Shown here: piece by piece, positions 5,861-21,784 of the stretch
Layout: every line of letters begins with the position of its first letter
How positions within the stretch are numbered: position 1 is the first letter of the stretch
DNA from: an uncultured bacterium
GTDB taxonomy: Bacteria > Verrucomicrobiota > Lentisphaeria > Victivallales > UBA1829
DNA length: 41,090 nucleotides
Assembly (NCBI GenBank): GCA_949297765.1
Contig: CASFTV010000029.1
Location: forward strand, 1-41,090
Direction of reading: 5' to 3'
The notes under the pieces: model-generated
What the model was told of the DNA's origin: nothing
Database searches by the model: none
The model's input: only the letters and a program-made list of their open reading frames with translations
Program-made: the position numbers and the translations under genes

Positions 5861-5880
5861 TTTGTCTTCCGGATCCGTTC

Positions 5881-5919
5881 TGCCCGGTTCGACTCTGATT
5901 CCTTCGGCCGGGCATTTTT
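5881..5919 (+). terminator. Rho-independent terminator after the GH2-like gene
   Basis: TGCCCGG (5881-5887) pairs with CCGGGCA (5908-5914), followed at once by TTTTT (5915-5919). The loop is 20 bases long. It begins 20 bases after the GH2-like stop codon. Confidence 0.65.
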
Positions 5920-6652: not shown

Positions 6653-6662
6653 CGGGGCGCAG

Positions 6663-7493
6663 TCAGGATAACTCAAACATGAGTCGGCCAAGTTCCAGAG
6701 CATACTTCAGTTTCAATCTCTGGATCGCCCGGGAATAAGGACAGCGTTCCCCGGGAACTTCAAAGTTGAACAACCCTTCGTATGTGCTTGCCTTCAGTTT
6801 TTCCATAAACGCCCTCCAGTTCACGGTGCCACGTCCGCAGGGAAACATGTGGTGATCCGCATTTCCCAGATTATCCGCGATGTGAAGCGCAATCAGCCTG
6901 TCCCCCGCTTCATCGAGAAACAGACAGGGATCGCCCTGAACCAGATTCAAATGCCCCGTGTCCAGACAGATCCCAAGCTCCGGACTCCCCACCTTTGAAA
7001 TCATCCGCAGAAGATCGGACGCAAACGGCTGGGTCGAGGGGATGTTCTCTATCGCTATCCGGATTCGGCTTCCCTCAATGGAACGGCAGAGTTCCGAAAG
7101 AGACGCCGCTGAAAGCTCTTCCGTTTTCTCCTGATCCATCCCCTGCTCCTGTGCGGTCCTTCCTCCACAGTGAAGGACCGCCGCCCGGACTCCGATCCGC
7201 TCATAAACCTCAAGTTCTTTTTTTAGAAAATTAAGAAATGAACGGCGTGTCGCCGGATCCGGATGCGCTATATCCGCCGTCAGGTGCAGATGGGCCTGCG
7301 AAAGAGAAAGTCCGCGGTCGGTGGCAAAATCCGCCAGTTCCGCTGCCGCACGCATTGGATTGCTCCGTTCCATCAGCACCTTCCCGTGTTCATCGGAAAA
7401 TTCGGCATACCGGTATCCGCATTCCGCCAGCGTTCCAATTGCCGATTCCGGAGAATCCTCCACAAGAAATGCTGTCCACATTGAAATTTTCAT
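6663..7493 (-). CDS. Sugar phosphate isomerase/epimerase-type TIM barrel protein
   Basis: This 276-residue protein is of the xylose isomerase-like / AP endonuclease 2 superfamily, whose members isomerise or epimerise keto-sugars, inositols or related polyols with a divalent metal. Likely metal ligands and catalytic residues are Glu149 (IAIENIP), Asp178 and His181 (CLDTGHLN), His204 (IALHIADN) and Glu245 (FNFEVPGE); His109 (LHCGG) is also typical. There is no signal peptide, so it is cytoplasmic. MKISMW (ATG at 7493) is preferred to the ATG 21 bases upstream because AGGA lies before it and the family starts this way. It is a single gene with its own promoter (7570-7598), next to the CRISPR-like remnant. 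The substrate cannot be told from the sequence. Confidence 0.82.
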   Translation of the reverse strand: MKISMWTAFLVEDSPESAIGTLAECGYRYAEFSDEHGKVLMERSNPMRAAAELADFATDRGLSLSQAHLHLTADIAHPDPATRRSFLNFLKKELEVYERIGVRAAVLHCGGRTAQEQGMDQEKTEELSAASLSELCRSIEGSRIRIAIENIPSTQPFASDLLRMISKVGSPELGICLDTGHLNLVQGDPCLFLDEAGDRLIALHIADNLGNADHHMFPCGRGTVNWRAFMEKLKASTYEGLFNFEVPGERCPYSRAIQRLKLKYALELGRLMFELS

Positions 7494-7569
7494 GGTTTCA
7501 TCTTTCCTGAACATCCCCTTCCGGAGCGCTGTTCATTTGTTGGAGTTTGTGTTCTTCGGGTTTTCTGTT

Positions 7570-7598
7570 ATTATATCCCGCGTTCAGAGATTTTTCAA
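7570..7598 (-). promoter_or_regulatory. Promoter for the isomerase/epimerase gene
   Basis: On the minus strand, TTGAAA (7598-7593) and a perfect TATAAT (7575-7570) are 17 bases apart. The start point would be near 7563, giving a leader of about 70 bases before the ATG at 7493. Confidence 0.65.
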
Positions 7599-8074
7599 TT
7601 CAGAAAATCTGGAAAACGAAATTCAGAACAGAAGATTCCTCCGGATTTTCCCATCCGGGAACAAGCCCTTCGCATCCTCCTGTTCCGGAATAAAAGAATT
7701 GCCTGAAAACAGAATCCGATTTCTTCTCTTCCGCGGAAGACTTCTCCGGAATGTTCCAGAGGGCGCCGGATGCGGCGAATGCGGATGAAGATGGTATCGC
7801 GGATATGGAAAATGGTTCCCCGCACAGACGGTGACTTTCCGTCGTAATACGGTTCCCGTTCTGTTCAGGAAAGCGGCCGGAATCCCGGAAGTGCAGTCGC
7901 TTCCGAGGAGAAAATCTTCTTGCCAGGACGGAAAAGACTCTGGTTAAAAAAATAACAAAAAAAAGATTTTCTCTGCAACCTTTTCCTTCCTGAAACGCTT
8001 TTAGGGTGAGAATGCCTGATGAAAGCCGGGCGCCGCAGGAAACAAAACAGACGAAGCAGGCGGGGAGATTCTGT
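7599..8074. other. Intergenic region upstream of the RiPP locus
   Basis: I see no gene here. The last 150 bases are A/T-rich (runs of A at 7946-7964). TTGCCA (7920-7925) with TTAAAA (7944-7949) after 18 bases is the only weak promoter candidate pointing right. The promoter of the RiPP genes is therefore not resolved by eye. Confidence 0.3.
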
Positions 8075-8356
8075 ATGAGCAGGGAAATGGTCAGAAAGTT
8101 CTATGAGGTTCTGAAAAGCGATGCCGTCACAGCCGGGGAATTCCGGGATCAGCTTGAATCCGCCGCGCCGGAGAGAATGGAGATCGCCGCGGCTCTTGCG
8201 GTGAAATTCGCCGCAGGGAAAGGCTATGTCTTCACCGCGGAAGAACTTCTGGCGTTTGACGGTGAGGCATTCGAACTCAGCAGAGAGGAACTGGAGAAGA
8301 TCAATGCCGCTGGAGCCGGAAAGGAAAAGCCGGTTTTCCTCTTTGGACTCCCATGA
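8075..8356 (+). CDS. Nif11-type leader peptide, putative RiPP precursor
   Basis: This 93-residue protein matches the Nif11-like leader pattern: MSREMVRKFYEVLKSD at the N-terminus, an acidic/hydrophobic middle, GKGYVFTAEELLAF at about 48-61, and ELSREELEKINAAGAG before the end. A double-Gly-like site (AAG or GAG) would leave a very short core, about KEKPVFLFGLP, with no Cys, Ser or Thr. The ATG at 8075 is chosen over upstream in-frame starts because GGGGAG (8062-8067) lies 7 bases before it and Nif11 leaders begin there. It is the first gene of the RiPP locus. The core is so short that the protein may be a decayed precursor or act in trans as a helper. Confidence 0.72.
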   Translation: MSREMVRKFYEVLKSDAVTAGEFRDQLESAAPERMEIAAALAVKFAAGKGYVFTAEELLAFDGEAFELSREELEKINAAGAGKEKPVFLFGLP

Positions 8357-8566
8357 ATCTGAAAAACGGTCCGAAAGAGGAAGAGAAAACGGTAACCCTT
8401 GTTTTCCCGGAGAGTTTTTCAGTCCTGAAAATAAACAGCAGTTCGCCGGAAAGATTTCAAAAAAGGAGGATTTTTTCTGCTTGTTTTTTCCCGTGAGAGG
8501 TATATGTTACCGCAACGGTTCCCGGAATAAAGTGAAACAGAAACGTGAAAAAGAAGGAGGTCGAAA
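8357..8566. other. Leader region before the first NHLP precursor
   Basis: No gene is supported. An AAGGAGGA at 8464-8471 looks like a ribosome site, but the TTG frame after it runs into the precursor gene in another frame and has no recognisable protein. TTGTTT (8481-8486) and TATGTT (8503-8508), 16 bases apart, is a weak promoter candidate that could give the precursors extra expression. Confidence 0.3.
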
Positions 8567-8884
8567 ATGGCTTGGACTCAAACAGAAATTGAAGCGTGTA
8601 TCGGAGCCTGCAAGAAAAAAGCGGCGGTCGATGCGGGATTTCGGAAGAAACTGCTGGCGGATCCGGCGGCAGCGGTGAAAGAGGTTTCCGGCAAGGAGAT
8701 TCCAGCCGGATTCAAGATCAAGATTCTGGAAAACGATCCGGCGTATGATGCAACGTTTGTTCTTCCTCCGCTGGTTTCGGGAAATGTCTCCGACAGCGAG
8801 CTGGACGAAGTCACCGCCGGCATCTGCGGATTGCAGAGCTGCGGAATGAAGGCTTGCGCTGCGGCGGAAAACGGAGCCAAGTAA
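8567..8884 (+). CDS. NHLP-leader RiPP precursor 1 (Cys-pentad core)
   Basis: This 105-residue precursor has a nitrile-hydratase-alpha-like leader (residues 1-85): FRKKLLADPAAAVKEVSGKE, then FKIKILENDPAYDATFVLPP, then SDSELDEVTAG. The C39 peptidase of the NHLM transporter should cut after TAG, leaving the 20-residue core ICGLQSCGMKACAAAENGAK. Core Cys lie at 87, 92 and 97, five apart, and the last residue is Lys. Two further Cys (11 and 15) in the leader are shared with precursors 2 and 3. The ribosome site AAGGAGG sits 8 bases before the ATG and is very strong. I infer that the SPASM radical SAM enzyme downstream modifies the core Cys pattern. Confidence 0.9.
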   Translation: MAWTQTEIEACIGACKKKAAVDAGFRKKLLADPAAAVKEVSGKEIPAGFKIKILENDPAYDATFVLPPLVSGNVSDSELDEVTAGICGLQSCGMKACAAAENGAK

Positions 8885-8902
8885 GTCTCTTCCGGCGGTT
8901 CT

Positions 8903-8922
8903 CCGGAGCGGACCCGCTCCGG
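8903..8922 (+). other. Perfect hairpin between precursors 1 and 2
   Basis: CCGGAGCG (8903-8910) and CGCTCCGG (8915-8922) form an 8-bp stem with loop GACC, 19 bases after the precursor 1 stop. No T run follows, so it is not a classical terminator. It may protect the 3' end of precursor mRNA or weaken read-through. Confidence 0.6.
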
Positions 8923-8970
8923 GACCGTTGGAACAATCAGCGAATAACGTGAAAAAGAAGGAGGTCGAAA

Positions 8971-9288
8971 ATGGCTTGGACTCAAACAGAAATTGAAGCA
9001 TGTATCGGAGCCTGCAAGAAAAAAGCGGCAGTCGATGTGGAATTCCGGAAGAAACTGCTGGCGGATCCGGCGGCAGCGGTGAAAGAGGTCTCCGGCAAGG
9101 AGATTCCAGCCGGATTCAAGATCAAGATTCTGGAAAACGATCCGGCATATGACGCGACATTTGTTCTTCCGCCGCTGATTTCGGGAAATCTCTCCGATCG
9201 CGAGCTCGACGAAGTCGCCGCCGGGATCTGCGGATTGCAGACCTGCGCGATGGATGCCTGCGGCGCTGCCGGAAACGGATCCAAATAA
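8971..9288 (+). CDS. NHLP-leader RiPP precursor 2 (Cys-pentad core)
   Basis: This 105-residue paralogue of precursor 1 has the same leader apart from six substitutions, the same leader Cys (11 and 15), and cleavage expected after AAG (residue 85). The core is ICGLQTCAMDACGAAGNGSK, again with Cys at 87, 92 and 97 and a terminal Lys. Positions that change between cores 1 and 2 lie between the Cys residues or in the tail (S/T, G/A, K/D, A/G, E/G, A/S), while the spacing is fixed. That is the pattern expected if the Cys residues are the modification sites. The ribosome site is identical to that of copy 1. Confidence 0.9.
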   Translation: MAWTQTEIEACIGACKKKAAVDVEFRKKLLADPAAAVKEVSGKEIPAGFKIKILENDPAYDATFVLPPLISGNLSDRELDEVAAGICGLQTCAMDACGAAGNGSK

Positions 9289-9335
9289 GATTCCGGAATC
9301 ATCCTTTGCAACAAAATCAATTCAGGAGAAAAATC

Positions 9336-9647
9336 ATGGCTTGGACACAGCAGGAGATTAATAACTGTATCGCCGCCTGCAAACGGAAAGCCGCCGTCGA
9401 TGCGGCGTTCCGGAAACAGCTTCTGGCGGATCCGGCCACGGCAATACGGGAACTTGCCGGCAAGGAAATCCCGTCGGGATTCCGGATCAAAGTATTGGAA
9501 AACGACCCGGAGTACGATGCGACATTTGTTCTTCCGCCGCCGATTTCGGGTAATCTTTCAGACAAGGAACTTGACGGTGTGACCGGCGGAAGCGTGTTGT
9601 GTCCCGTTGAGGTCTGCGCCGCAAACGTCTGCGGCGCGGATAAGTAA
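9336..9647 (+). CDS. NHLP-leader RiPP precursor 3 (Cys-pentad core, GG site)
   Basis: This 103-residue precursor has a leader alignable to precursors 1 and 2 without gaps (MAWTQQEINNCIAACKRKAA, then LADPATAIRELAGKEIPSGF, then LSDKELDGVTGG). It has a true double-Gly cleavage site at 84-85. The 18-residue core is SVLCPVEVCAANVCGADK, with Cys at 89, 94 and 99: the same five-residue spacing shifted by two, and again a C-terminal Lys. The ATG at 9336 is chosen over one 30 bases upstream because AGGAG (9324-9328) lies 7 bases before it and the protein then matches its paralogues from residue 1. It is the oldest-diverged of the three. Confidence 0.9.
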   Translation: MAWTQQEINNCIAACKRKAAVDAAFRKQLLADPATAIRELAGKEIPSGFRIKVLENDPEYDATFVLPPPISGNLSDKELDGVTGGSVLCPVEVCAANVCGADK

Positions 9648-9676
9648 TTCTGCATGAGCAGAGAAAGGATTCCGGG

Positions 9677-10975
9677 ATGATTTGGTCGAGATACAACCGG
9701 GTGTTCCAGTCGCAGAAACAGGGATGGGTGCTGTACAATGCTCTCTCCAATACGTTTCTTGCGCTTCCGGAACCCTTTGGCAAAACGCTGGAAGCTCTGC
9801 ATGCCGGGGACGAGTTCCGGTGCGATGATCCCGGATTGTCCCTGCAGCTGATCGCCGCCAAAGCCGTGGTCGATCCCGGCGAAGACGACCGCCTGCGCGA
9901 TGTCCTGCGGATGAAACGGCGGATGGCCGATTTCAGCGAACGCATGCTGCTGCTTACCGTGGCGCCGACTCGAAACTGCAACTTCGCGTGTCCTTACTGC
10001 TTTGAAGAAAACCGGGCCGGCATCAACATGAGCCGCGAAACCGAGGACCTCCTGGTCAGGTTCGCCGAACGCTTCCAGCCGGGACAGATGTTCGGCGTAA
10101 CCTGGTTCGGAGGGGAACCTCTGCTGCGGTTCGAACAGATCTGCCGTCTTTCCGACCGCTTCCGGGCTTTGGATTTCCGTCATTACCGCGCCTCGCTGAT
10201 TACCAACGGCTATCTGCTGGACGCGGAAAAGGCGGCGCAGCTTGAGGATCTGGCGATCCGGGAGGTGCAGATCACGCTGGACGGACCCGAAGAGGTGCAC
10301 GACCGGCGGCGGACTCTGGTTTCCGGCGGCCCGACCTTCCGGAAAATCCTCGAAAACATCGACACTCTGTTCGCTTCCGCCTGGACCGGCCATCTGCACC
10401 TGCGGGTCAATGTCGACCGGACCAACGCGGAGGACTACCACCGGATCTACAATTTTCTCTACGCCCGCTATCCTGAAAAGACGGAGCATCTGCACGTCTA
10501 TCCGGGAATCGTCCATGCGATGGGCAAGGAGAATCCGGATACCGCGTGCCTGTTCAATGTTGACGAGGCGGCCGATTTCCAGATCGAACAGTTCCGCCGT
10601 TACGGCGTGCAGAGCCATCCGTTTTATCCCGGACGGAAACTTTTCAACTGCATTGCGGCGCGGCGGAACGGTTATGTGGTCGGTCCCGGAGGAGAACTCT
10701 ACAAATGCTGGAATGATATCGGCATCGCGGAACGGATCGTCGGTCATGTCGATCCGGAAAAACCGTGGAACAATGAACTGCTCGCCGAGTGGCTGGAAGG
10801 ACAGAACGCGCTCAACGATCCGGAGTGCCTTGCCTGCGGCCTGATGCCGGTGTGCGACGGCGGCTGTCCGGCGCTGCGCCGCGAAAAGGCTCCCCACTGC
10901 TCGCGTTACCGGAATCGTCTTCCGGAACTGCTGGAGGCTCATTATGACGCAACCTGCCGGAACAGACACAATTGA
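9677..10975 (+). CDS. Radical SAM/SPASM peptide maturase
   Basis: This 432-residue enzyme starts with a small domain (YNRVFQSQKQGWVLYNALSN) like those at the start of many peptide-modifying SPASM enzymes. The radical SAM cluster motif is C101-x3-C105-x2-C108 (CNFACPYCFE), followed by FGGEPLL at about 160. A SPASM region binds extra Fe-S clusters: C325, C344, C384, C387, C393 and C397 (CLACGLMPVCDGGCP), plus a late Cys in HCSRYR. Relatives form Cys thioether or other crosslinks in RiPPs. It lies 29 bases after precursor 3 and before the GNAT gene, so I infer that it acts on the C-x4-C-x4-C cores, perhaps making a ranthipeptide-like product. Crosslink type and acceptor residues cannot be read from sequence. 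Confidence 0.88.
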   Translation: MIWSRYNRVFQSQKQGWVLYNALSNTFLALPEPFGKTLEALHAGDEFRCDDPGLSLQLIAAKAVVDPGEDDRLRDVLRMKRRMADFSERMLLLTVAPTRNCNFACPYCFEENRAGINMSRETEDLLVRFAERFQPGQMFGVTWFGGEPLLRFEQICRLSDRFRALDFRHYRASLITNGYLLDAEKAAQLEDLAIREVQITLDGPEEVHDRRRTLVSGGPTFRKILENIDTLFASAWTGHLHLRVNVDRTNAEDYHRIYNFLYARYPEKTEHLHVYPGIVHAMGKENPDTACLFNVDEAADFQIEQFRRYGVQSHPFYPGRKLFNCIAARRNGYVVGPGGELYKCWNDIGIAERIVGHVDPEKPWNNELLAEWLEGQNALNDPECLACGLMPVCDGGCPALRREKAPHCSRYRNRLPELLEAHYDATCRNRHN

Positions 10976-11918
10976 AATCGAATCGCTTCATCTTTTCAAT
11001 TTGAAGCATTACCGGTCGTTTTTCACCGTGCGCCAGCAGGCGCTTTTCGGAGATTCTCTTCCGGGCGGGAGGCATCGGCTGTTCGGCGCGCGCTGCGAGG
11101 GAGTCCCCGCGGGAGTGATATGGGCCGGGCCGGACCAGAATCCCGCCGGAGTGTTTCTCTTCCATCTCTATGTTGCGGAGGCGTTCCGGCGGCGCGGCAT
11201 CGGACGCAGACTGCTGGAGACGATCCGTTCCACGGCTGCCGAAGAGGGGTTCCGGGAGGTGTATGTACGCTTCCGTCGGAAAAACCGTGTCGAAAGTGCA
11301 TTGTGGAAGATGCTGGACACTTTTCCGGGACCGTGTGTCCGTCTGGAGACGGCATTCCGTCTGGAGCTGCCCTCCGGAGCAGAACGCGAACTGCGGGTGC
11401 GGACCCGGTCCGACCGGTGGAGCGTGGTCCCTCTGGAGACGGCCGTCGCCGCACTGGGAGAGGAACAGCGCACGGAGATGGCGGAACGGGAACGGCGTTT
11501 CCTGGAAGGACTCGGACGGCTTTCCCTGACGGATCCGGCAGAGTGGAAAAAATTCCTCCGCGAAGGAGTCTTTCTGGCTCCGTTCTGGAGTGATTCCGGA
11601 CTGCCCCGGTTCGGCCGGGCCTGTGTGGAACGTGCCACCGGACGGCTCGCCGGATGGATCGCCGGGGAGTTGACGGAAGGCGAACTGCATGTCCGCCGCG
11701 CGTTTGTGGAGCCGGAATTCCGCGGCGTGGAAGTGATGGCTCTGCTGGCCGAAGAGGCCTACGAATGGATGCATCGGACCGGCGGAGCTCTCCGCTGGGA
11801 GGTCAAATACTGGAACCAGGTGTTTCAGCGGGGATGCCTCCGCTACGCCGGACGCTTGAAAATCAATGAATCCATCGAGGATTGCGTTAAAATAATCCCT
11901 GCAAAATCAGGAGAATGA
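10944..11918 (+). CDS. Tandem GNAT-domain acyltransferase of the RiPP locus
   Basis: This 324-residue protein has two GNAT folds. The first has a clear acyl-CoA loop (VAEAFRRRGIGRRLLETI, about residues 76-93). The second is weaker (FVEPEFRGVEVMALLAEEAY, about 254-273). It overlaps the SPASM gene by 32 bases, which suggests translational coupling. GNAT enzymes next to NHLP precursors in selidamide pathways attach fatty acyl groups to Lys or ornithine side chains. Here precursors 1-3 all end in Lys and precursor 4 has one Lys in its core, so peptide acylation is a reasonable inference. Self-protection by acetylation is the other possibility. The second domain may be catalytically dead and serve in peptide binding. 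Confidence 0.75.
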   Translation: MTQPAGTDTIEIESLHLFNLKHYRSFFTVRQQALFGDSLPGGRHRLFGARCEGVPAGVIWAGPDQNPAGVFLFHLYVAEAFRRRGIGRRLLETIRSTAAEEGFREVYVRFRRKNRVESALWKMLDTFPGPCVRLETAFRLELPSGAERELRVRTRSDRWSVVPLETAVAALGEEQRTEMAERERRFLEGLGRLSLTDPAEWKKFLREGVFLAPFWSDSGLPRFGRACVERATGRLAGWIAGELTEGELHVRRAFVEPEFRGVEVMALLAEEAYEWMHRTGGALRWEVKYWNQVFQRGCLRYAGRLKINESIEDCVKIIPAKSGE

Positions 11919-11920
11919 GA

Positions 11921-12262
11921 ATGAGTAAAATCGAAGAAAATCTGATGAAGTGGAAAGAGGTCGAGGCAAAAGTGATCGCCCGGGCGCTGGCCGACGAGGC
12001 ATTCCGCACCCGTCTCGAACAGGATCCCCGCGAAACGATCGAAACCGAACTGCAGTGCAAAATCAGCGGCGATGTGACGTTCAAGGTCCGCGAGGAGGAA
12101 AACCCCGGCGAAATGACCATCCTGCTTCCGAAACTCCCGAAAAAAGAGGTGGGAGAACAGCTGAGCGACCGCGAAATCGACGATATCGTGGCGGCCGGAA
12201 ACATCGGAATCTCTGTCGGCATCGTGACAACCGACATCGTGCTGGTCAAGGGAATCGTCTGA
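11921..12262 (+). CDS. NHLP-leader RiPP precursor 4 (Cys-free, Val/Ile-rich core)
   Basis: This 113-residue precursor has an NHLP leader (ALADEAFRTRLEQDPRETIE, then GEMTILLPKLPKK, then LSDREIDDIVAAG) but is only distantly related to precursors 1-3. Cleavage after residue 93 would leave NIGISVGIVTTDIVLVKGIV: no Cys, ten Ile/Val, two Thr and one Lys. Such a beta-branched core recalls proteusins that are epimerised and C-methylated. The PoyD-type epimerase gene starts 20 bases downstream and the B12 radical SAM methyltransferase follows. The ATG at 11921 is preferred to that at 11915 because AGGAG (11909-11913) is 7 bases before it, against 1 base. Confidence 0.87.
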   Translation: MSKIEENLMKWKEVEAKVIARALADEAFRTRLEQDPRETIETELQCKISGDVTFKVREEENPGEMTILLPKLPKKEVGEQLSDREIDDIVAAGNIGISVGIVTTDIVLVKGIV

Positions 12263-12270
12263 GTTCAGAT

Positions 12271-12285
12271 GGAGGAGCACCCTTG
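12271..12285 (+). promoter_or_regulatory. Strong ribosome site that fixes a TTG start
   Basis: GGAGGAG (12271-12277) stands 5 bases before TTG (12283-12285). No ATG or GTG in this frame lies close by, and the protein resembles its family from this point. Confidence 0.8.
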
Positions 12286-13626
12286 AACTTCCCCGATTAC
12301 AAACGCTTTCTCGAATCCTACATGGGAGACGATGCCTTCCGGGAACATTTCGACCGCTCTCCCGCCGCCGCGCTGCGGGAAGCCGGTTTGAATCCGGAAT
12401 CAACGCCGGAATTTCTTCTGGCGGTCGGGGAGGGATGCCGCAGCCGCAACTTCCGTCCGGTCGTGGACCGCTTCCCGGATGAGCTGGCGGAACTGCGCCG
12501 GTTCGCCGCTGAACAGGAAAACGGAAATCCGTTCACGGTACGCTGCCGGAACGCCTGTTCCGATAATCCGCGCTTCGAAGCATGGCGGGAACGGCGCCGT
12601 CAGGGGAACCGCGCGGTGCTTCAGCCGATGTATTTCGACCGCGCGTTCAACATCGCTCTTGCCTGTGAACTCGGGGTCGGGTGTTCCGGACAATGCGGAT
12701 TCTGCTGCTTTGATGCGCCGCCTCTCCGGGAAAATTTCTGGTATACGCCGGAAAACCGGACCTTGTGGCGCGATGTGCTGAGGGTGTTTCGCAATCTGCT
12801 CGGCTCCCGGGCGGGGGCGGCGGCCCTCTACTGGGCAACCGATCCTTTCGACAATCCGGATCTGGAAAAATTCTATCAGGATTTTTATGAATGCAACCAT
12901 GTCTGGCCGCCGATCACGACGCGCTGGCCGCTGCGGGATCCCGCCCGGACCCGCCGCTTCGCCGCGGAAGGCCGCAGACACGGACAGCCCTGCTGCCGCT
13001 TTTCCCTGACGGAACGCGGGGAACTGCGCCGGTTTTTCCGGGAATTTTCCGCAGAGGAGACGATGGACTGGAGTCTTGTCCTGAACAATCCGGAGTCGCT
13101 GAACTGCTATTCCATCACCGGCCGGGCGCGGGAACTGCAATCCGGGAATCCTGAAAAGTGTCAGGAGGCGACAACCAGCAGTTGTCTTTCCGGATTTCTG
13201 GTGAATTTGTGCCGCCGGGAGGTCCGGCTGCTCTCTCCCTGCGCGCCGGATGAGGCAAATCCGTATGGATTCCATCTCTGGACGGAGGCAACATTCCGCG
13301 ACGCGGCGGAGCTGGAACAGCTGCTGGGGAAAATTCAGGAACGGTTTTTCCCGGAAGGACCGGAGGCTCTGCCGTTTCTGCGGTTGTCCTCCTGCTGGAC
13401 GCTGTCGGTTTCCGGCGGACATGCGGAATTGGTCTCCCGCTATCTGGTGCGTCGTTTTGATGTGTCGGATCCGGAGGCCGCTCTGCTGGAAAAATTGAAG
13501 ACCGGCATCTCCCGGGAAGAGTTCAACCGGGAGTTCGGCGGAATGCTGGCTCCGTTCGGATGCGTCGGCGGATTGCTTGAAACATTGTGGAAATCCGGCA
13601 TGCTGTCGGAGGAGGAAGACCATTGA
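12283..13626 (+). CDS. PoyD-type radical SAM peptide epimerase
   Basis: This 447-residue protein has the radical SAM motif C134-x3-C138-x2-C141 (CSGQCGFCC). After it come YWATDPFDNPDLEKFYQDF (about residues 185-204) and a TTRW..RDPARTRR segment, features I associate with the RiPP amino-acid epimerase family of PoyD (polytheonamide) and OspD. These enzymes abstract the alpha hydrogen and convert L- to D-residues in a core peptide. The first 40 residues (FLESYMGDDAFREHF, then RSPAAALREAGL) look like the start of an NHLP leader. The start is TTG behind GGAGGAG; its TGA overlaps the next TTG start by four bases. The natural substrate is probably precursor 4, directly upstream; action on the Cys-containing cores cannot be excluded. 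Confidence 0.82.
   Translation: MNFPDYKRFLESYMGDDAFREHFDRSPAAALREAGLNPESTPEFLLAVGEGCRSRNFRPVVDRFPDELAELRRFAAEQENGNPFTVRCRNACSDNPRFEAWRERRRQGNRAVLQPMYFDRAFNIALACELGVGCSGQCGFCCFDAPPLRENFWYTPENRTLWRDVLRVFRNLLGSRAGAAALYWATDPFDNPDLEKFYQDFYECNHVWPPITTRWPLRDPARTRRFAAEGRRHGQPCCRFSLTERGELRRFFREFSAEETMDWSLVLNNPESLNCYSITGRARELQSGNPEKCQEATTSSCLSGFLVNLCRREVRLLSPCAPDEANPYGFHLWTEATFRDAAELEQLLGKIQERFFPEGPEALPFLRLSSCWTLSVSGGHAELVSRYLVRRFDVSDPEAALLEKLKTGISREEFNREFGGMLAPFGCVGGLLETLWKSGMLSEEEDH
13608..13625 (+). promoter_or_regulatory. Strong ribosome site with TTG start overlapping the previous stop
   Basis: GGAGGAGG (13608-13615) lies 7 bases before TTG (13623-13625). The sequence TTGA joins this start to the TGA stop of the epimerase gene (13624-13626), so the two are translationally coupled. 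Confidence 0.8.
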
Positions 13627-15554
13627 ATCCTGTTGATATCACGCTGGTGAATATGCCCTTTGCAATGCCGCTGGTGGCTCCGCTCGGAATCAATGTCCTC
13701 TGCGGCGCCCTGCGCAAAGCCGGATTCCGTGTCCGGTGCAGATTTGCAAATATCGACTTCGCGGAACGGATCCCGGAAGAACTGTACGACTATCCGGCCT
13801 CCAACGGACTGAATGTGGATGTGATGCTGGGAGACTGGCTCTTCTCCGATTCCCTCTTCGGCCCGGATCCGGAACGCGACCGCCGTTTTCTGGAACTCCT
13901 GCGGGAAGAAAATAAACATGAACGGCTGATCTGGAACCGCCGTTATCACTCGCTGGACGATCTTCTGGGCGATCTGCCCCTGCTGAAACGCGAAGCAGTC
14001 CGCTGCGTGGAAAAGACCGCCGCCGCTCTGACGGACGGTTCCACCCGGATCGTCGGCTGCTCCAGCACCTTTTTCCAGCGGCTCGCTTCGCTGGCGCTTC
14101 TGAAACGGGTCCGCGAACGGAATCCCGAAGTGGTGACCTTTCTCGGCGGCGCCGACTGTGAACGGGATGCGGGAATGGAGGCGGCTCTCCGTTTTCCGTT
14201 CGTCGACTATGTTTTCTGCGGCGAAGGCGATTTGACCGTTCCGGAAATGGTCCGCCGGGTGCTGGAAAACAACCGTTCGGCGGAACTGCCGTTCGGCGTG
14301 TTCGACCGGGCAAAGGCGGAACGGGGAGTCCCCGAGGTCGCCTGCGTTCCCGGCGAGGCCATCGCGGAATCCGATCCAACCGATTATTATGAACGGATCT
14401 GCGGAAGCCGTCTGCATCGCGCCTCGGTGAAGAAATATTTTCTGGAAAGTTCGCGCGGCTGCTGGAAAGGAGAGAGACAGCACTGCAGCTTCTGCGGACT
14501 GAACGGAGAACGGATCGCCTATCGGCGCAAAGAACCGGAACGCGTGCTGGCCGAACTGCGCCGCGGATACCGGCAGTTCGGATGCCGGATCTTTCTGACC
14601 TCCGACACCGTGCTGGATTTGAACCGGATGCGCGGGCCGCTGCGCACATTCGGAGAGGAGGCCCCCGATACAGTTATCAGCTACGAGACCGTTTCAACCC
14701 TGACCGAAGAGCAGATCCGCTTTCTCTCCGACTGCGGCGTAATGGTGATCCAGAGCGGAATCGAAACCCTTCATCCGAACCATATCCGTCTTCTGAACAA
14801 GGGCAACGACACGCTGTCGAGCATCGCCCTGCTGAAATTCACGCTGGAAAACCGGATTCAGGTTCTGTGGAACATGCTCAGCGGAATCCCCGGCGATTCG
14901 CCGGAAGAATACCGCTGGGTGATGGAACTGGTCCCGAAAATCATCCATCTTCCGGGTCCGAACTGGGGGGCCATCCGTTTTGACAAGTTCAGTCTGTACT
15001 GGCGGGAACCGGAACGGTTCGGCCTCAAGCTGGAACCGATGAAGGGATACCGCATCCTGATGCCGGAAGAATCGGTCTCGCTGGATCGCTGGGCTCTTTT
15101 CTATGACAACCGCAATCCCGCCGCCTGCACATCTCAGGAAGAGATTGCCGAGGTCCGGAAAACGGTCGATGCGTGGTACCGGGATTCCCATCCGGCAAAG
15201 TATCATCTGGAATTTGCCGCTCCCGGCCTTCTGAGGGATACCCGTCCCTGTGCGGCGGTTGCGGAATACCGGCTTTCGCCCGTCGAACAGGCGGTTCTGC
15301 AGGCGGCGCGTTCTCCTGTCGCCCGGTCCGCCGTGGAGGCCTTGACCAAAAATTCTTCGCGGGCGATTGAAAAAATGAAGGAATACGGATATCTTATTGA
15401 AGTGGAAAACCGGCTGCTGGCTCTGCCGCTGATCCTTGCTTCCGAAGAGCGGATCGCAAAAAGCCGGCTGCGCTACCGCAGCCTGTTCGGAGGGCAGACT
15501 CCGCCCGCCGCCACGGTGAATGAGGAGATTCCTTTTATTGAGATCGGACGTTGA
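13623..15554 (+). CDS. B12-binding radical SAM RiPP C-methyltransferase (PoyB/PoyC-like)
   Basis: This 643-residue protein opens with a cobalamin-binding-like domain (about residues 1-200: ITLVNMPFAMPLVAPLGIN, later VTFLGGADCERDAGMEAAL and VDYVFCGEGD). The radical SAM domain has the unusual cluster motif C280-x7-C288-x2-C291 within SSRGCWKGERQHCSFCGLNG. That motif is the hallmark of the RiPP-maturation radical SAM methyltransferases related to PoyB and PoyC, which methylate unactivated carbons of core residues using methylcobalamin. A C-terminal winged-helix-like region follows (SPVEQAVLQAARS). It is coupled to the epimerase by the TTGA overlap. Likely targets are Val, Ile or Thr side chains in precursor 4. 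The exporter genes begin 12 bases later. Confidence 0.87.
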   Translation: MNPVDITLVNMPFAMPLVAPLGINVLCGALRKAGFRVRCRFANIDFAERIPEELYDYPASNGLNVDVMLGDWLFSDSLFGPDPERDRRFLELLREENKHERLIWNRRYHSLDDLLGDLPLLKREAVRCVEKTAAALTDGSTRIVGCSSTFFQRLASLALLKRVRERNPEVVTFLGGADCERDAGMEAALRFPFVDYVFCGEGDLTVPEMVRRVLENNRSAELPFGVFDRAKAERGVPEVACVPGEAIAESDPTDYYERICGSRLHRASVKKYFLESSRGCWKGERQHCSFCGLNGERIAYRRKEPERVLAELRRGYRQFGCRIFLTSDTVLDLNRMRGPLRTFGEEAPDTVISYETVSTLTEEQIRFLSDCGVMVIQSGIETLHPNHIRLLNKGNDTLSSIALLKFTLENRIQVLWNMLSGIPGDSPEEYRWVMELVPKIIHLPGPNWGAIRFDKFSLYWREPERFGLKLEPMKGYRILMPEESVSLDRWALFYDNRNPAACTSQEEIAEVRKTVDAWYRDSHPAKYHLEFAAPGLLRDTRPCAAVAEYRLSPVEQAVLQAARSPVARSAVEALTKNSSRAIEKMKEYGYLIEVENRLLALPLILASEERIAKSRLRYRSLFGGQTPPAATVNEEIPFIEIGR

Positions 15555-15566
15555 ACTGGGTGAAGA

Positions 15567-16898
15567 ATGAATAGAAATCTGTTCCGTAAAAATGCGATGC
15601 TCAAGGTTGCATCGCCGTTTGAATTGAACCGCCTGCTTTCCATTTTCAATGGACGCGAAGCGCTGGCGCTGCTGGCTCTGGGCGTGACGGTGATCGCCCT
15701 GCTGGCATGGGGCATCTTCGGCGTGATCTATGAACGGGTCAGCGGAAACGGCATAGTCATGCTGCAAAGTCAGTTTGATACCATTCAGGCCCCCGCCGGA
15801 GGAGTTCTGATCTCCTTTGATATCGAAACGGGAGATTTTGTCAAGCGCGGACAGATGGTCGGACGGCTCTTTTCATTTTCCGATCTTGAAAATCTGCGGG
15901 AAAAACATCAGAAGCTGGAAATGCTCCGGGGCAATCTTGCGGAGGTCCGCCGGCATACAGACCGGCTCCAGAAAGGAAATCAGACCCATATCCGGAAAAT
16001 GTCCGGAGTGCTGGATGAAACGATCGCCCATCTCGACAAGGAACTGGCATGGCTCGCGACGTTTGTCGAGAAAGGAGAGGAACTCGCCCGGCGCGGCGCC
16101 ATCTCGCAGAAACAGTGGCATGAGGATCAGGAACGGTATCACACCAAACTCAAAAGTCGGGCCGATTACCGGCTCAAAAAACTGGAGGAGGAAAACTCCT
16201 TCTCCGAAACGGAATTTTCCCTTGCCAAGGAGATCATGTCTGCGGAGGCCGAAGTGAAGTCGGCGCTCTTCGAAGTGGAGCAGCTCCGCAACAAACTGGA
16301 GTACAATACGCGGATCATCAGCGCACATTCCGGAACCGTGACCAGCGTGAATTATACCCCCGGCGCCATCGTCCCCGCGGAAGCAACCCTCGCCAGCCTG
16401 ATCGACCTCGATGACCAGAGCGATGAAACATGGGAGCTGTACGCGTATTTTTCCGTCGCCGACAGCAAGAGGATCCGTCCCGGCATGAGCGCCGTTGTGA
16501 CGCCCTCCTCGGTGAAGGCCGAACGCGACGGCTCCATCCGCGGCACGGTCACCCATGTCGGCACCTACATTCTTCCGGTGGAGTCCATCGACCGCACCTT
16601 CCGCAATGCCGCGTTCGCGCAGTATCTTCTCAAACAGTGTGCGAACATGCCGGTCGAGGTCCGCATCCTGATGTCCCGGGACCGGAACTCTCCAAACGGT
16701 TTCCGATGGACCTCCGGAGCCGGACCGGCAATTGAAATCAGCGCGGGAACTCTCTGCTCGGCAAGCGTTGTCGTGGAAAAGGATCCGCCGCTGGAACTGC
16801 TGTTCTCCGGACTGCGCAAATTCATGTTCGGACGGGGGGTGATGGAGGAGTTCCAGCTGAAAAACGCCCAAACCGGAGCCGGGGAGAACAATCCATGA
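15567..16898 (+). CDS. HlyD-family adaptor of the NHLM peptide export system
   Basis: This 443-residue membrane-fusion protein has a cytoplasmic N-terminus, one transmembrane helix at about 31-53 (ALALLALGVTVIALLAWGIF), and a biotinyl-lipoyl-like half (GGVLISFDIETGDFVKRGQ). A long charged alpha-helical hairpin follows (about 105-245), then the second lipoyl half (RIISAHSGTVTSVNYTPGA) and a beta-barrel region. It matches the secretion protein found with NHLP precursors and bridges the inner-membrane ABC exporter to the periplasm or outer membrane. The stop overlaps the next ATG by four bases. No TolC-like partner is in the window, so one elsewhere would be needed for release outside the cell. 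Confidence 0.88.
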   Translation: MNRNLFRKNAMLKVASPFELNRLLSIFNGREALALLALGVTVIALLAWGIFGVIYERVSGNGIVMLQSQFDTIQAPAGGVLISFDIETGDFVKRGQMVGRLFSFSDLENLREKHQKLEMLRGNLAEVRRHTDRLQKGNQTHIRKMSGVLDETIAHLDKELAWLATFVEKGEELARRGAISQKQWHEDQERYHTKLKSRADYRLKKLEEENSFSETEFSLAKEIMSAEAEVKSALFEVEQLRNKLEYNTRIISAHSGTVTSVNYTPGAIVPAEATLASLIDLDDQSDETWELYAYFSVADSKRIRPGMSAVVTPSSVKAERDGSIRGTVTHVGTYILPVESIDRTFRNAAFAQYLLKQCANMPVEVRILMSRDRNSPNGFRWTSGAGPAIEISAGTLCSASVVVEKDPPLELLFSGLRKFMFGRGVMEEFQLKNAQTGAGENNP

Positions 16899-19057
16899 TT
16901 TTCCGGAAAAAACGGGTCGAATGCCCGATGGTGCTCCAGATGGAGTCCGCGGAATGCGGTGCCGCCGCGCTGGCGATGGTCATGGCGTATCACGGCGTGG
17001 TCGTGCCGCTGGAACGTCTCCGCGATGAGTGCGGCGTGTCCCGGGACGGAAGCAAGGCATCCAGTCTTCTCAAAGTCGCGCGCAGCTACCATTTCCAGGC
17101 CAAGGGGTACCGGGAGGAAGAACTCGAGGCGTTGAACGGTCACGCTCTGCCGCTGATCCTTTTCTGGAATTTCAATCATTTTGTAGTCTATACCGGACGC
17201 CGGGGACGCAAATTCTGCATCAACGATCCCGCTCTCGGACCCCGTCTGGTGGATCCGGCGGAAATGGATGAATCGTTCAGCGGAATCCTGCTGGAGTTCA
17301 CCCCGGGGGAAGGCTTCCGGCGCTTCGGACACGAAAACTCGCTGGCGGGCGCTCTCTGGAAACGCCTGGAAGGATGCCGCGGGACTTTTTTTCTCCTTCT
17401 GCTGACCGGCCTTCTGCTGGTGCCGGGCAATCTGCTGACGCCGAATCTCTCGAAGATTTTCATCGACAACTTCATGATGGATGGCTTTTTCAACTGGGGA
17501 ACGCCGCTCATTACCCTTGCCGCTCTGACTCTGCTGGTTACGCTCTTCCTTACCTGGATTCAGTGCAACGGACTGGTTCGCCTGAATTTGAAGGTGGCTC
17601 TGACGGGATCTGCGATGTTCCTGTTCCGGGTCCTGCATCTTCCGGTGAGTTTCTTCTCCAGCCGTCAGAGCGGCGAACTGGCGACCCGTGTCCAGCTGAA
17701 CGACCGGGTCGCGGCATTCCTTTCCGAACAGCTGGCCGCCAATCTGCTCAGCTTGATTACACTCATTTTTTACGCTTTCCTGATGTTCTGCTACGATGCT
17801 GTCCTCGGGACTCTGGCCGCCGTGATGGGGGCGATGATTCTTCTCCTTCTGCAGCGGAAGCTCAAATCGCGGAAACTGCTCGGTCAGAGCATCCAGCTCG
17901 ATACGGGGATGCTCTACGGAACCACCACCACCGGAGTGATGCTGATCGAGACATTGAAAGCGTCCGGCGGCGAAAACGATTTCTTTTCCGGATGGAGCGG
18001 ATTTCAGGCAAGAAGTCTGCTCGGCCGCCAGAAACTGGAAGCCTCCACGGTTCTGCTCGGAACCTTTCCGAACAGCGTGCAGAAGATCACCGTGGCTCTG
18101 GTCACCGGACTCGGAGCCTTGCGGATCCTGGCCGGAAGCATGACCGGCGGAGCATATCTGGTGTTCCAGCTGATCCTCGGCAACTTTTTCGCTCCGCTCG
18201 AACAGCTGGTGAATATCGGCAATTCCCTGCAGGAGATCGACGCCGGACTGAAACGTCTGGATGACGTGATGACCTGCCGGGAAGATCCCTATTCGCTCGA
18301 GGAGGGCGCCTCCCATGCAGGAGAGCCGAAACCGAAGCTGGAGGGCCGTCTGGAACTTCGCAACGTGACCTTCGGATACAATCCCACCGCGGAACCGATT
18401 CTCCGCAATTTCAGTCTGACCGTGAATCCCGGGGAACGGATCGCCATCGTGGGTCCCTCCGGATCGGGTAAATCCACGGTGGCAAAGCTGATCGCGGGAC
18501 TGTATCCGCCGTGGAGCGGAGAGATCCGGTTCGACGGCAAGACGCGCGAAGCCTATTCCCATACGGAACTCTTCAACTCCTTTGCGATGGTCGATCAGGA
18601 TATTTTTCTGTTCCGCGGCACCATCTGCGACAATCTGACCATGTTTGACCGGTCCGTGCCGATCGTCGATGTGGAACGCGCCGCACGCGATGCGTGCATT
18701 CACGACCAGATCGCGGCGCGCAGCTACGGTTATTTTTCGGCGGTGGGGGAAGGCGGCGGAAACTTCAGCGGAGGTGAACGGCAGCGGCTTGAAATCGCCC
18801 GTGCCCTGGTGTCGAATCCCTCTCTTCTGCTGCTGGACGAGGCCACCAGCGCGCTGGACCCTGAAACGGAACAGCGGATCGACCGCAATCTGCGCCGTCG
18901 CGGATGCAGCTGTGTCATCATCGCGCACCGTCTCAGCACCATCCGGGATGCCGACCGGATCATCGTACTCGAACATGGCGAAATTGTGGAATCCGGAACC
19001 CATGAGGAACTGCTGGCCAGGAACGGTTTTTACGCCCGGCTGCTTGCAAATATTTGA
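16895..19057 (+). CDS. NHLM exporter: C39 peptidase / permease / ATPase
   Basis: This 720-residue protein carries an N-terminal C39 peptidase with catalytic Cys21 (MESAECGAAALAMV), His95 (NFNHFVVYTG) and Asp111 (INDPALGPR). A six-helix ABC permease spans about 165-440, and an ATPase follows with Walker A GPSGSGKST (520-528), signature FSGGERQRLEIARAL and Walker B LLLLDEATSALD. The peptidase should remove NHLP leaders after Gly-Gly, Ala-Gly or Thr-Ala-Gly while the core is exported. All peptidase and ATPase residues are intact. It is the first of two ABC proteins usual for NHLM systems and is translationally coupled to the HlyD gene (ATGA overlap at 16895-16898). Confidence 0.92.
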   Translation: MIFRKKRVECPMVLQMESAECGAAALAMVMAYHGVVVPLERLRDECGVSRDGSKASSLLKVARSYHFQAKGYREEELEALNGHALPLILFWNFNHFVVYTGRRGRKFCINDPALGPRLVDPAEMDESFSGILLEFTPGEGFRRFGHENSLAGALWKRLEGCRGTFFLLLLTGLLLVPGNLLTPNLSKIFIDNFMMDGFFNWGTPLITLAALTLLVTLFLTWIQCNGLVRLNLKVALTGSAMFLFRVLHLPVSFFSSRQSGELATRVQLNDRVAAFLSEQLAANLLSLITLIFYAFLMFCYDAVLGTLAAVMGAMILLLLQRKLKSRKLLGQSIQLDTGMLYGTTTTGVMLIETLKASGGENDFFSGWSGFQARSLLGRQKLEASTVLLGTFPNSVQKITVALVTGLGALRILAGSMTGGAYLVFQLILGNFFAPLEQLVNIGNSLQEIDAGLKRLDDVMTCREDPYSLEEGASHAGEPKPKLEGRLELRNVTFGYNPTAEPILRNFSLTVNPGERIAIVGPSGSGKSTVAKLIAGLYPPWSGEIRFDGKTREAYSHTELFNSFAMVDQDIFLFRGTICDNLTMFDRSVPIVDVERAARDACIHDQIAARSYGYFSAVGEGGGNFSGGERQRLEIARALVSNPSLLLLDEATSALDPETEQRIDRNLRRRGCSCVIIAHRLSTIRDADRIIVLEHGEIVESGTHEELLARNGFYARLLANI

Positions 19058-19063
19058 ACGCGT

Positions 19064-21784
19064 ATGAGAATAGATCGTATTGAACAACTGCTGAACGCCG
19101 TGGCGACCGGAGAAATCTCCTTTTCCGGCCGGTATCTTCCGCTGGATGATCCGGAGATCTGCTGGGTGGTCCTCTCCGGCGCGCTGAATCTTTTTTCGGC
19201 GCATGTGGCGCCGGACGGTTCCTGCGGCGCCAGACTGCCGCTCGGGACCGGGGACTGTCCTCTGCACAGCGTGGTCCCGGGTTCCGCTTCCGCTCCGGAA
19301 GACGACGGCCGTCGGATCCTCCTGGCGATGCCGCTGCCCGGCACACACTGTCTGAAGGTCCCCTGGACGGCTCTGGAGGCGCTCTGCCGCCGGGAACCCG
19401 AACTGGAGGAGTTCCGGCGTGCCGGACTGGAGCTCTGGCTGGAATGTCTCGGAGAATGCGGCAGTGCGGGCGCCTCCGTCATGGACCGGGCGGAGGAGCT
19501 GCGGCGCATCCTCCCGGAACGCTGCATGCAGGAGGCCCGGCAGAGAAACGATGCCGAACGGGAGCGCCTTCAGGCAAAACTCCGCGAAAAAGAGGCAAGT
19601 CTCCGGAACGCCATGAACCGGATCTGCAACGTGCTGCGGCCGACGGAACGCTTCCGTCTTCCTCCGCCGACCGGCGATGCCCTGTTCGATGCCTGCGCCG
19701 CCGCCGGGCACGGAATGGGGTTGACTCTGCGCTGTCCCGGAAAACACTTCTTTGCTTCCGCCGATTCTCCGGAGGACCGGATTCTCCGGATCTGCGACTA
19801 TAATCAGGTCCGCTGCCGGAAAGTGGAGCTGACAGAAGGGTGGGAACAGCAGGATTTTACCGCGTTTGTCACCTTCCGCCGGGAATCGGGCGCGCCGGTT
19901 GCCCTGCTCGGGCGCTGCGGGGACGAGGCCCGGATATTTGATCCGGCGGAAGCGCAGGTCCGTCGTCTTTCCCGGCAGGATGCCGCGGCGCTGTCGAAGG
20001 ACGGCTGGTGTTTCTACACTCCGTTTCCGCCGGGACGGATCACGGGCGGAAAACTGCTGGCTCTGACGTTCCGCGGAGCGCGCGGCGATCTCTCGACTCT
20101 GCTCTGGCTGATGCTGTTCGGCGCGCTGCTGAGCATGGCTGTGCCGATCATCAACGGCGTGATTTTCGGAACGGTGATTCCGACGGCGGACCGGGTGCTG
20201 CTGATGCAGCTCTTCGGAATTTCTCTTCTGTTTGCCCTCACTCAGGGGATTTTTGAATATGTGGAGTCCATTGCGATTCTGCGCATTCATGTCCGGGCGG
20301 AGTATACGCTTCAGGCGGCGGTCTGGGATCGGCTTCTGAATCTGCCGGCCCGTTTTTTCCGGGCGTTCAGCATAGGAGATCTCTCTGTCCGCAGTCTTGG
20401 GATCATGCAGATCGGCGAAATTTTATCGGTATCCACGATCAAGGCGGTGGTGGCGGGGGTGTTCTGTTTCCCGTCCCTGATACTGATGCTCTATTACGAT
20501 CTCCTGCTTGGTGCGATTTCCCTGCTGATTCTGATCGTTGTCCTGGGAATCTTTGCCGTGCTGGCGGTTCTGATGGTGCATCGCCATGTGCGCATTCTCG
20601 CTGCGGAAGGGGAGTTGAATGGAGAGCTGGTTCAGTTTTTCAACGGCATATCCAAAATCCGGACCGCGGGCGCGGAGAATGCCGCATTCGCACACTGGGC
20701 CGAGCGCTTCAGTTCTAAAAAACAGATTTACCGCTCCTTTGCCAACTGCCGCACTTTCGCAACGGTCGTGAACGCGGTGATTCCGGTGCTGACGATCGGA
20801 ACGGTGATTTCCATTGTGACCTGGCAGTATTTTCATGCGGAGAACGGCGAAGAACTCATGAGTTCCGCCGATTTTGTCAGTTTTGTTTCGGCGCTCGGGA
20901 TCGTCAGTGCGGCGGTGGGGCAGATGATCATGTCTCTGATTTCGGCGGTCAGCGCGATTCCGGTCTATCGGCGTCTTCGCCCGATTCTGGAGGCCGAACC
21001 GGAGAATGACATCGCCAAGCCGCCGCCGGGAAAACTCTCCGGAGCAATCGACGTCCGGAATATCTCATTCCGCTATGGACCGGATCAGCCTCTGATTCTT
21101 TCCGGGCTTTCGATGCAGGTCCGGCCGGGAGAATTCGTCGCGGTGGTTGGGGAGTCCGGTTCCGGGAAGTCCACGCTGCTCCGCCTGCTGCTCGGATTCG
21201 AAACGCCTTCCGGGGGAAGCATCACCTATGACGGTCAGGATGTCAGCCATGTGAATCTGCAGGCGCTGCGTTCCCGGATCGGCGTGGTGCTTCAGGACAG
21301 TCGTCTGCTGCCGGATTCCGTGCTGCGCAACATTGTCGGACACTCCGGAAAACTCACTGTCGACGACGCCTGGGAGGCCGCCCGCCTCGCAGGCTGCGAA
21401 CAGGATATCCGTGAAATGCCGATGGGAATGCACACCATGCTCTCGGTCGGCGGCGGTTCCGTTTCCGGCGGCCAGCGCCAGCGCATTCTCATTGCCCGGG
21501 CTCTGGCAAAGAAACCGGCGGTTCTGCTTTTCGACGAAGCAACCAGTGCTCTCGACAATGAAACGCAGGCCGTGGTCAGCGAGGGGATCCGGAAACTGAA
21601 CGTTTCCCGTCTCCTGATCGCCCACCGTCTCAGCACGGTGATGAACGCAGACCGGATCTATGTCCTGCACGAAGGGCGGATGGCCGAATGCGGAACCTAT
21701 CGGCAACTGATGGAACAAAACGGGATTTTTGCGAAGCTCGCCCGGCGGCAGCTCGCGGAAAACGGAGAGGAACCCGAAAAATGA
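19064..21784 (+). CDS. NHLM exporter: second ABC permease/ATPase with degenerate N-terminal domains
   Basis: This 906-residue protein ends in an ABC permease (about 345-640) and ATPase: Walker A GESGSGKST from Gly696, signature VSGGQRQRILIARAL, Walker B VLLFDEATSALD. The first 340 residues hold a nucleotide-sensor-like beta region, a charged helical stretch (about 165-190) and a fold reminiscent of a C39 peptidase (about 205-325). That last part lacks the ECG catalytic motif, so it may bind but not cut leaders. It probably forms a heterodimer with the preceding ABC protein, as in other NHLM systems. The start has no good Shine-Dalgarno sequence and lies 6 bases after the upstream stop, so reinitiation is likely. 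Confidence 0.88.
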   Translation: MRIDRIEQLLNAVATGEISFSGRYLPLDDPEICWVVLSGALNLFSAHVAPDGSCGARLPLGTGDCPLHSVVPGSASAPEDDGRRILLAMPLPGTHCLKVPWTALEALCRREPELEEFRRAGLELWLECLGECGSAGASVMDRAEELRRILPERCMQEARQRNDAERERLQAKLREKEASLRNAMNRICNVLRPTERFRLPPPTGDALFDACAAAGHGMGLTLRCPGKHFFASADSPEDRILRICDYNQVRCRKVELTEGWEQQDFTAFVTFRRESGAPVALLGRCGDEARIFDPAEAQVRRLSRQDAAALSKDGWCFYTPFPPGRITGGKLLALTFRGARGDLSTLLWLMLFGALLSMAVPIINGVIFGTVIPTADRVLLMQLFGISLLFALTQGIFEYVESIAILRIHVRAEYTLQAAVWDRLLNLPARFFRAFSIGDLSVRSLGIMQIGEILSVSTIKAVVAGVFCFPSLILMLYYDLLLGAISLLILIVVLGIFAVLAVLMVHRHVRILAAEGELNGELVQFFNGISKIRTAGAENAAFAHWAERFSSKKQIYRSFANCRTFATVVNAVIPVLTIGTVISIVTWQYFHAENGEELMSSADFVSFVSALGIVSAAVGQMIMSLISAVSAIPVYRRLRPILEAEPENDIAKPPPGKLSGAIDVRNISFRYGPDQPLILSGLSMQVRPGEFVAVVGESGSGKSTLLRLLLGFETPSGGSITYDGQDVSHVNLQALRSRIGVVLQDSRLLPDSVLRNIVGHSGKLTVDDAWEAARLAGCEQDIREMPMGMHTMLSVGGGSVSGGQRQRILIARALAKKPAVLLFDEATSALDNETQAVVSEGIRKLNVSRLLIAHRLSTVMNADRIYVLHEGRMAECGTYRQLMEQNGIFAKLARRQLAENGEEPEK

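Follow-up and report, generated by a model that had tools for sequence, protein, structure and literature searches.

A proposed hybrid NHLP RiPP locus in a Victivallales bacterium, with C-x-x-Z as its candidate crosslinking unit

A gut bacterium of the Victivallis group, whose genome belongs to the order of Victivallis vadensis, carries three tandem peptide precursors (P1–P3) with evenly spaced core cysteines. These lie in the window, by which we mean the whole analysed stretch of 41,090 nucleotides (contig CASFTV010000029.1, positions 1 to 41,090, forward strand). The explanation that we favour, with confidence slightly better than even, is a hybrid NHLP RiPP locus in which a SPASM enzyme forms C-x-x-Z thioethers on P1–P3 and a GNAT may acylate their last residue, a Lys. 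We infer the crosslinking, its carbon and acceptor, and the acylation from the genes, the leaders, the C-x-x-Z units, the Lys and the co-inheritance of the GNAT and SPASM genes, all of which are seen in the DNA. Specifically, the SPASM enzyme would bind the NHLP leaders of P1–P3, probably through its RRE-like N-terminal domain, and would then join the sulfur of each core Cys to the residue three positions downstream; as in ranthipeptides, the sulfur would most likely be attached at a beta or gamma carbon. With a single spacer residue separating successive C-x-x-Z units, Cys would seem to recur at every fifth position. The peptidase ABC transporter would cut after the GG/AG site and export the product, and the invariant Lys at the C terminus may receive the acyl group on its side chain.

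The operon is listed in Table 1. The SPASM gene lies directly behind the Cys precursors and is overlapped by the GNAT gene. No LanM or YcaO, as other Cys-modifying enzymes, was seen among the operon genes, and lanthionine or azoline chemistry was rejected on that ground. Upstream of P1, a small ORF (8078-8356) matches Nif11 weakly (21.8 bits, cut-off 23.8) and has no counterpart in the orthologous loci; it is possibly an additional or decayed precursor. Prepilin-like proteins are encoded at 26248-26991 and 36187-36957; they are unrelated to the locus, and the kind is also present at another locus of the set (L117).

Table 1. Genes of the putative RiPP operon in the window, with model scores in bits.
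Feature	Position	Strand	Observations
Precursor P1	8567..8884	+	NHLP leader; core ICGLQSCGMKACAAAENGAK after ..VTAG; TIGR03793 50.0 (cut-off 50.9)
Precursor P2	8971..9288	+	NHLP leader; core ICGLQTCAMDACGAAGNGSK after ..VAAG; TIGR03793 54.6
Precursor P3	9336..9647	+	NHLP leader; core SVLCPVEVCAANVCGADK after ..VTGG; TIGR03793 56.1
SPASM radical SAM peptide maturase, 432 aa	9677..10975	+	RRE-like N-terminal beta3-alpha3 fold; AlphaFold2 pLDDT 93; best fold CteB
GNAT acyltransferase, 324 aa, probably tandem GNAT	10944..11918	+	Pfam Acetyltransf_1 63.8, two stretches
Precursor P4, Cys-free NHLP	11915..12262	+	core ..NIGISVGIVTTDIVLVKGIV; TIGR03793 52.4
PoyD-type radical SAM epimerase, TTG start likely	12283..13626	+	TIGR04517 305 (cut-off 325)
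B12-binding radical SAM C-methyltransferase	13587..15554	+	TIGR03975 629 (cut-off 281.85)
NHLM HlyD-type secretion protein	15567..16898	+	TIGR03794 473, above cut-off
NHLM ABC transporter with peptidase domain (leader cleavage, export)	16895..19057	+	TIGR03796 1011, above cut-off
Second NHLM-type ABC transporter subunit	19064..21784	+	ABC_tran, ABC_membrane; orthologous to ABC2 genes of L114 and L115

The preliminary description had reported a C-x4-C-x4-C pattern and a C-terminal Lys in three precursor cores, and the reading frames, cores and coordinates are as given there. Both inter-Cys distances equal 5 in each of the three cores, a spacing with a chance of ~0.008-0.009 per core when three Cys are placed randomly in cores of the same lengths. 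The model of the NHLP leader, TIGR03793, is reached by P2, P3 and P4, with P1 slightly short of its cut-off, and the whole genome contains four NHLP precursors, all of them inside the window. For P3, the ATG at 9336 is the most likely start and is favoured over the mechanical TTG at 9306. The leader DNA of P1 and P2 is 93% identical; judged from this resemblance the two are recent paralogues, and thus not independent cases. The core DNA of P3 is only ~33% identical to that of the P1 and P2 cores, and P3 is therefore an independent case of the common Cys pattern. Compared with the orthologues, the P1 and P2 leaders (8567-9285) are closer to each other than to their L007 counterparts (82-83%), whereas the cores are 83-87% identical to their orthologues and 78% to each other at the DNA level. 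This pattern looks like concerted evolution, with gene conversion of the leaders around fixed core cassettes. Additionally, the leaders of P1–P3 (8567-8881, 8971-9285 and 9336-9644) carry a C-x3-C near the N terminus (EACIGACKKK), which is conserved in all Victivallales orthologues, is absent from P4 and the Clostridial relatives, and possibly serves in metal or redox binding or in recognition.

Across the relatives, the sequences point to the unit C-x-x-Z, rather than the spacing, as the best-conserved feature, and C-x4-C is thus not the fixed element that had been proposed. Here Z stands for D, E, N, Q, H, K, R, F, Y or W, with positions counted after the Cys. In the window, Z occupies +3 in 7/9 Cys units, against 0, 0 and 2 units at +1, +2 and +4. 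The units read C-PVE, C-AAN and C-GAD in P3, and C-GLQ and C-GMK or C-AMD in P1 and P2; the third Cys of P1 and of P2 has Ala at +3, followed at +4 by Glu in P1 and Gly in P2. The earlier remark that CX3D or CX3E spacing does not fit is accordingly true of all the cores except at that third Cys of P1 (CAAAE). Position +3 is likewise filled by Z in 18/23 distinct units of the Victivallales, in 10 of the 11 distinct units of the Clostridial NHLP peptides, in 17/28 units of one CefA tail (zero at +1, +2 and +4), in 31/43 units of the Clo7bot peptides and, more weakly, in the Bacteroidales (86/130, versus 66, 45 and 52/116 at the other positions). Permutation within units gives P values of 0.0007 for the window and 2e-4 for Clo7bot, the floor value of 5e-5 for the Victivallales, Clostridial, CefA and Bacteroidales sets, and no significant enrichment in the Wallbacteria and Oscillospiraceae peptide sets, all of these being uncorrected values for a position and a residue class picked post hoc and for units that are not independent within one peptide. 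Between orthologous cores, the +3 columns changed in 0/12 cases (with synonymous changes in 5) and the Cys columns also in 0/12, while the +1, +2 and +4 columns changed in 9/36.

Z is best assigned, on these alignments, to the preceding Cys; assignment to the following Cys is not favoured. Three features argue for this register: position -2 of the first Cys almost never holds a Z-class residue, Z also stands at +3 of the last Cys (CGADK, CALD, CGTHG, CAADATLK), and the L113 cores keep it across gaps other than 5. Indeed, Z is retained at +3 in units followed by a Cys at a distance of 6, 7 or 8 residues (CLVNMGC, CAAKGEVC, CLIDFGGAC). The Bacteroidales set is neutral in this respect, as its +3 signal at gaps >=6 fails to discriminate between the preceding and the following Cys. 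The spacing itself is strict only nearby: 24/25 Cys-Cys distances equal 5 in the Victivallales homologues, against 4/8 in the distant NHLP relatives L113 and L106, and strict spacing thus characterises the near clade rather than the system as a whole. Over all relatives, distances range from 4 to 10 residues, and a Cys at every fifth position was rejected as a general rule because relatives break the period. Unconserved Cys spacing in homologues, which the preliminary description had named as evidence against its own proposal, is thus found in the distant relatives, and Z at +3 persists there. A double-Gly precursor of Prevotella lacticifex (L048:5562-5801) also has Cys at every fifth position, with Tyr or His at +2 (CVYTMCNYSACSYNFCQYGFCRYDICKHAVC), a register that differs from C-x-x-Z.

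The window enzyme is well supported as a peptide-modifying SPASM enzyme by its predicted fold and its alignment. Across an alignment of 60 relatives, neither the seven SPASM cysteines nor the CX3CX2C motif varies; all of these relatives match the Clo7bot, TIGR04463 and CefB models (60/60 each), and 48/60 match PapB. The window enzyme itself comes closest to the Clo7bot maturase model TIGR04334 (201 bits, cut-off 600), followed by TIGR04463 (196 bits, cut-off 525), CefB NF038107 (151 bits, cut-off 600) and PapB NF047865 (100.4 bits, cut-off 340), and stays far below the cut-off of each. In its AlphaFold2 model the N-terminal domain resembles an RRE, and the best fold match is CteB (TM 0.67), the maturase of the ranthipeptide thermocellin, with anSME, ChlB and TigE (8vpo) next. 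As TigE, a good fold match, forms cyclopropylglycine, the fold does not prove a thioether; we consider thioether formation likely from the model and its kin. The earlier proposal of three repeated modifications by the adjacent SPASM enzyme therefore stands in part: the repeated units, the adjacent enzyme, its seven SPASM cysteines and its ranthipeptide-type kin all speak for it.

The same data can be read in other ways. In a sactipeptide-like system, the Cys sulfur would be joined to the alpha carbon of the +3 (or another) residue, where the side chain matters little, which would account for the occurrence of Q, K, H, Y, D, E and N as Z. The chemical variety of Z, Lys included, suits this reading; a Lys in the Z position, as in P1 (CGMK), is uncommon for a beta or gamma thioether and just as compatible with a C-alpha link, and almost every type of residue has been documented as an alpha-thioether acceptor (PMC8326336). 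Nevertheless, +3 in the NHLP cores is never Gly, Val, Leu or Ser and is Ala at only a few Cys, the nearest enzyme families are non-alpha thioether or uncharacterised maturases, and known sactipeptides are mostly hairpins with long loops, so we hold an alpha link to be unlikely. Slightly less credible still is another SPASM chemistry, such as a C-C crosslink at Z, Cys oxidation or dehydro-residues, with the Cys kept for disulfides or metal. The fold embraces varied reactions, since TigE with its cyclopropylglycine and anSME with its Cys oxidation are both top matches. Against it, Cys and Z are equally invariant in the orthologues, and CefA pentads without Cys mostly lack Z as well (1/7, versus 17/28 with Cys; Fisher P 0.04).

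Two further readings are far less probable. The period of five could be purely structural, a coil like the A[DN]Lxx pentapeptide repeat that carries no crosslink code, and the CefA pentads (CGADA CAANV) do resemble A(D/N)xxx and keep the period over ~35 repeats. However, neither the CefA tail nor the window cores match the Pfam pentapeptide models at E up to 1, three pentads per window core are too few for one beta-helix coil, and relatives lose the period yet retain C-x-x-Z; we regard this reading as very improbable. We give just as little credence to the view that the SPASM enzyme acts on P4 or some other peptide and that the core Cys are bystanders. P4 does belong to this operon, and two further radical SAM enzymes are encoded at the locus, but P4 has no Cys, every orthologous locus has the SPASM gene immediately after its Cys precursors, and the L113 locus has Cys precursors and a SPASM gene with no Cys-free P4 homologue.

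By analogy with described enzymes, the C-terminal Lys of P1–P3 may be acylated on its side chain by the GNAT, and the Lys of P4 (VLVKGI) could equally well be the target. Every NHLP core in the Victivallales clade terminates in Lys, and the GNAT gene occurs in the same 5/137 genomes of the order as the SPASM gene. GNATs in NHLP clusters acylate selidamides, which is the best precedent for the C-terminal Lys (PMC9505594, PMC13060382); in particular, the tandem GNAT NpuN acylates a Lys side chain (PMC13060382). The window protein carries a P-loop (RRRGIG) in its N-terminal half and a degenerate version of it in the C-terminal half, a division also shown by NpuN (PMC13060382). A search of the GNAT against PDB sequences gave no match, and its AlphaFold2 model is poor (pLDDT 49.6). 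Among the relatives, stops or frameshifts break up the GNAT gene in L009/L125. At L125 (G024:C36:7032-8081) it contains two TGA, one TAG and one TAA codons, with the SPASM, P4 and epimerase genes open, and the interruption there reflects either an assembly error or loss.

A second, polytheonamide-like product is likely to arise from 11915-15554, as judged from its genes. The P4 core is rich in Ile and Val, its V. vadensis counterpart being IGIAVGIVTTDIVLVKGIA, and the region also encodes the PoyD-type epimerase and the B12 radical SAM methyltransferase. The epimerase aligns with TIGR04517 over its full length, and the L113 relative scores 333 bits. The epimerase is absent from some proteusins, so that its missed cut-off does not exclude membership. 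The N terminus of the window epimerase looks like an NHLP-related leader domain (TIGR04509, 29 bits), giving the impression of a leader-like domain joined to the enzyme.

A scan for SPASM relatives across 84,980 species genomes returned 80 loci. The SPASM gene is found in 5/137 genomes of the order, besides one distant match at 31% identity. Orthologous loci in V. vadensis DSM 14823 (L008/L114) and in genome G126 contain the three Cys precursors, SPASM, GNAT, P4, epimerase, methyltransferase and exporter. For V. vadensis ATCC BAA-548, Haft et al. 2010 (PMC2887384) reported three NHLP precursors together with three transporter genes; we infer that these genes are the orthologous locus, as their numbers, order and spacing agree. 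In the tree, the window enzyme falls inside a five-row Victivallales clade with support of 100/100, and the grouping of this clade with the Clostridial NHLP, Wallbacteria and Chlorobi/Acidobacteria enzymes is weaker (82/72, then an open fork). The nearest NHLP-linked relatives outside the order come from Clostridia (L113, 43% identity; G212, two copies), and the majority of the remaining SPASM relatives are from Bacteroidales and have double-Gly leaders. No new NHLP/SPASM relatives were found in the genus of G137, the family of G212 or the phylum, and the system is therefore rare and patchy. In a plasmid search, the GNAT had no match and the SPASM enzyme matched only at 29-36% identity. The L113 locus, from a Mediterraneibacter-like MAG (5448-10058), encodes, beside SPASM and PoyD enzymes, three NHLP cores that contain Cys, and has a weak GNAT-like gene (20.4 bits). 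One of its cores, ISVLIGISACAAAIGIGGGCPADACAARASIK, combines an Ile-rich stretch with C-x-x-Z units, and epimerisation and crosslinking may therefore meet on one peptide.

The locus shares features with several known systems. The preliminary description had suggested a new core class; however, Cys-every-fifth spacing is already catalogued in other bacteria, as NCBIfam holds CefA (NF038108, Cys-every-fifth RiPP peptide) and CefB (NF038107). CefA is the only NCBIfam model touched by the window cores (P3 15.9 bits, P2 15.1, P1 none; cut-off 30). In the CefA/CefB example from Methylomagnum ishizawai plasmid pRS11DPr1 (L121), the pentads follow C-[GAP]-x-[DEN]-[AV], and CAANV and CGAD of P3 recur. 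CefA adjoins a SPASM maturase of the TIGR04463 family there, and a radical SAM C-methyltransferase shares its family name with the window methyltransferase. Unlike the window precursors, this CefA has no NHLP leader, and no GNAT stands among the displayed neighbour genes. The protein (L121:1744-3783, 679 aa) has ricin-B-like, crystallin and fascin-like domains, followed by ~35 in-register pentads, 28 of them Cys-initial. Clo7bot peptides (Clo7bot/CtpM, TIGR04334) likewise favour N, Y or D at +3, but their units often have a spacer of 0 (C-x3-C) or 2, and their leaders are short and non-NHLP. Ranthipeptides (freyrasin/PapB, thermocellin/CteB, NxxC) resemble the window system in their SPASM maturase and in Cys paired with acidic or amide acceptors. 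The NxxC crosslink spans three residues, Cys23-Asn20, in the direction opposite to C-x-x-Z (PMC8326336), and PapB tolerates Cys-Xn-Asp with n = 0-6 (PMC9413430). In contrast to the CX3D/E of PapB, the window motif C-x2-Z begins with the Cys and admits Q, K, H and Y as Z, and the leader is NHLP. Proteusins of the polytheonamide type have the same NHLP leaders, NHLM export, PoyD-type epimerase and B12 radical SAM methyltransferase, to which the window operon adds three Cys-pentad precursors and a SPASM maturase. Selidamide clusters (phaeornamide, kamptornamide, nostolysamide/NpuN) also pair an NHLP precursor with a GNAT; those examples are lanthipeptides acylated at Lys1 or Orn, whereas here the candidate Lys is last and the ring enzyme is radical SAM. 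What looks new is the NHLP leader, the terminal Lys with the GNAT, the mixed proteusin operon, and C-x-x-Z as a likely crosslink code. In the literature searched, no paper was found on Cys-every-fifth, Clo7bot, geopeptide, CefB or TIGR04463.

A bolder interpretation, which we consider rather doubtful, is a triple hybrid RiPP family that unites a proteusin leader, C-x-x-Z thioether rings of a spacing uncharacterised so far and an acylated C-terminal Lys, with C-x-x-Z as the general code of a large SPASM branch. That branch would comprise the Clo7bot, CefA, Bacteroidales double-Gly and NHLP peptides, in which spacers of 0, 1 or more residues would generate the various Cys-rich patterns. The Clo7bot, CefA and Bacteroidales relatives form large named families with no product described in the literature searched, and the common C-x-x-Z unit offers a concrete, testable crosslink rule for them. 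The present locus has the advantage of short cores, with three units in ~20 residues, and of an orthologue in the cultured gut species Victivallis vadensis. Acylation of the terminal Lys by the GNAT, if it occurs, would unite lipidation with thioether crosslinking, two kinds of RiPP chemistry, on a single NHLP scaffold.
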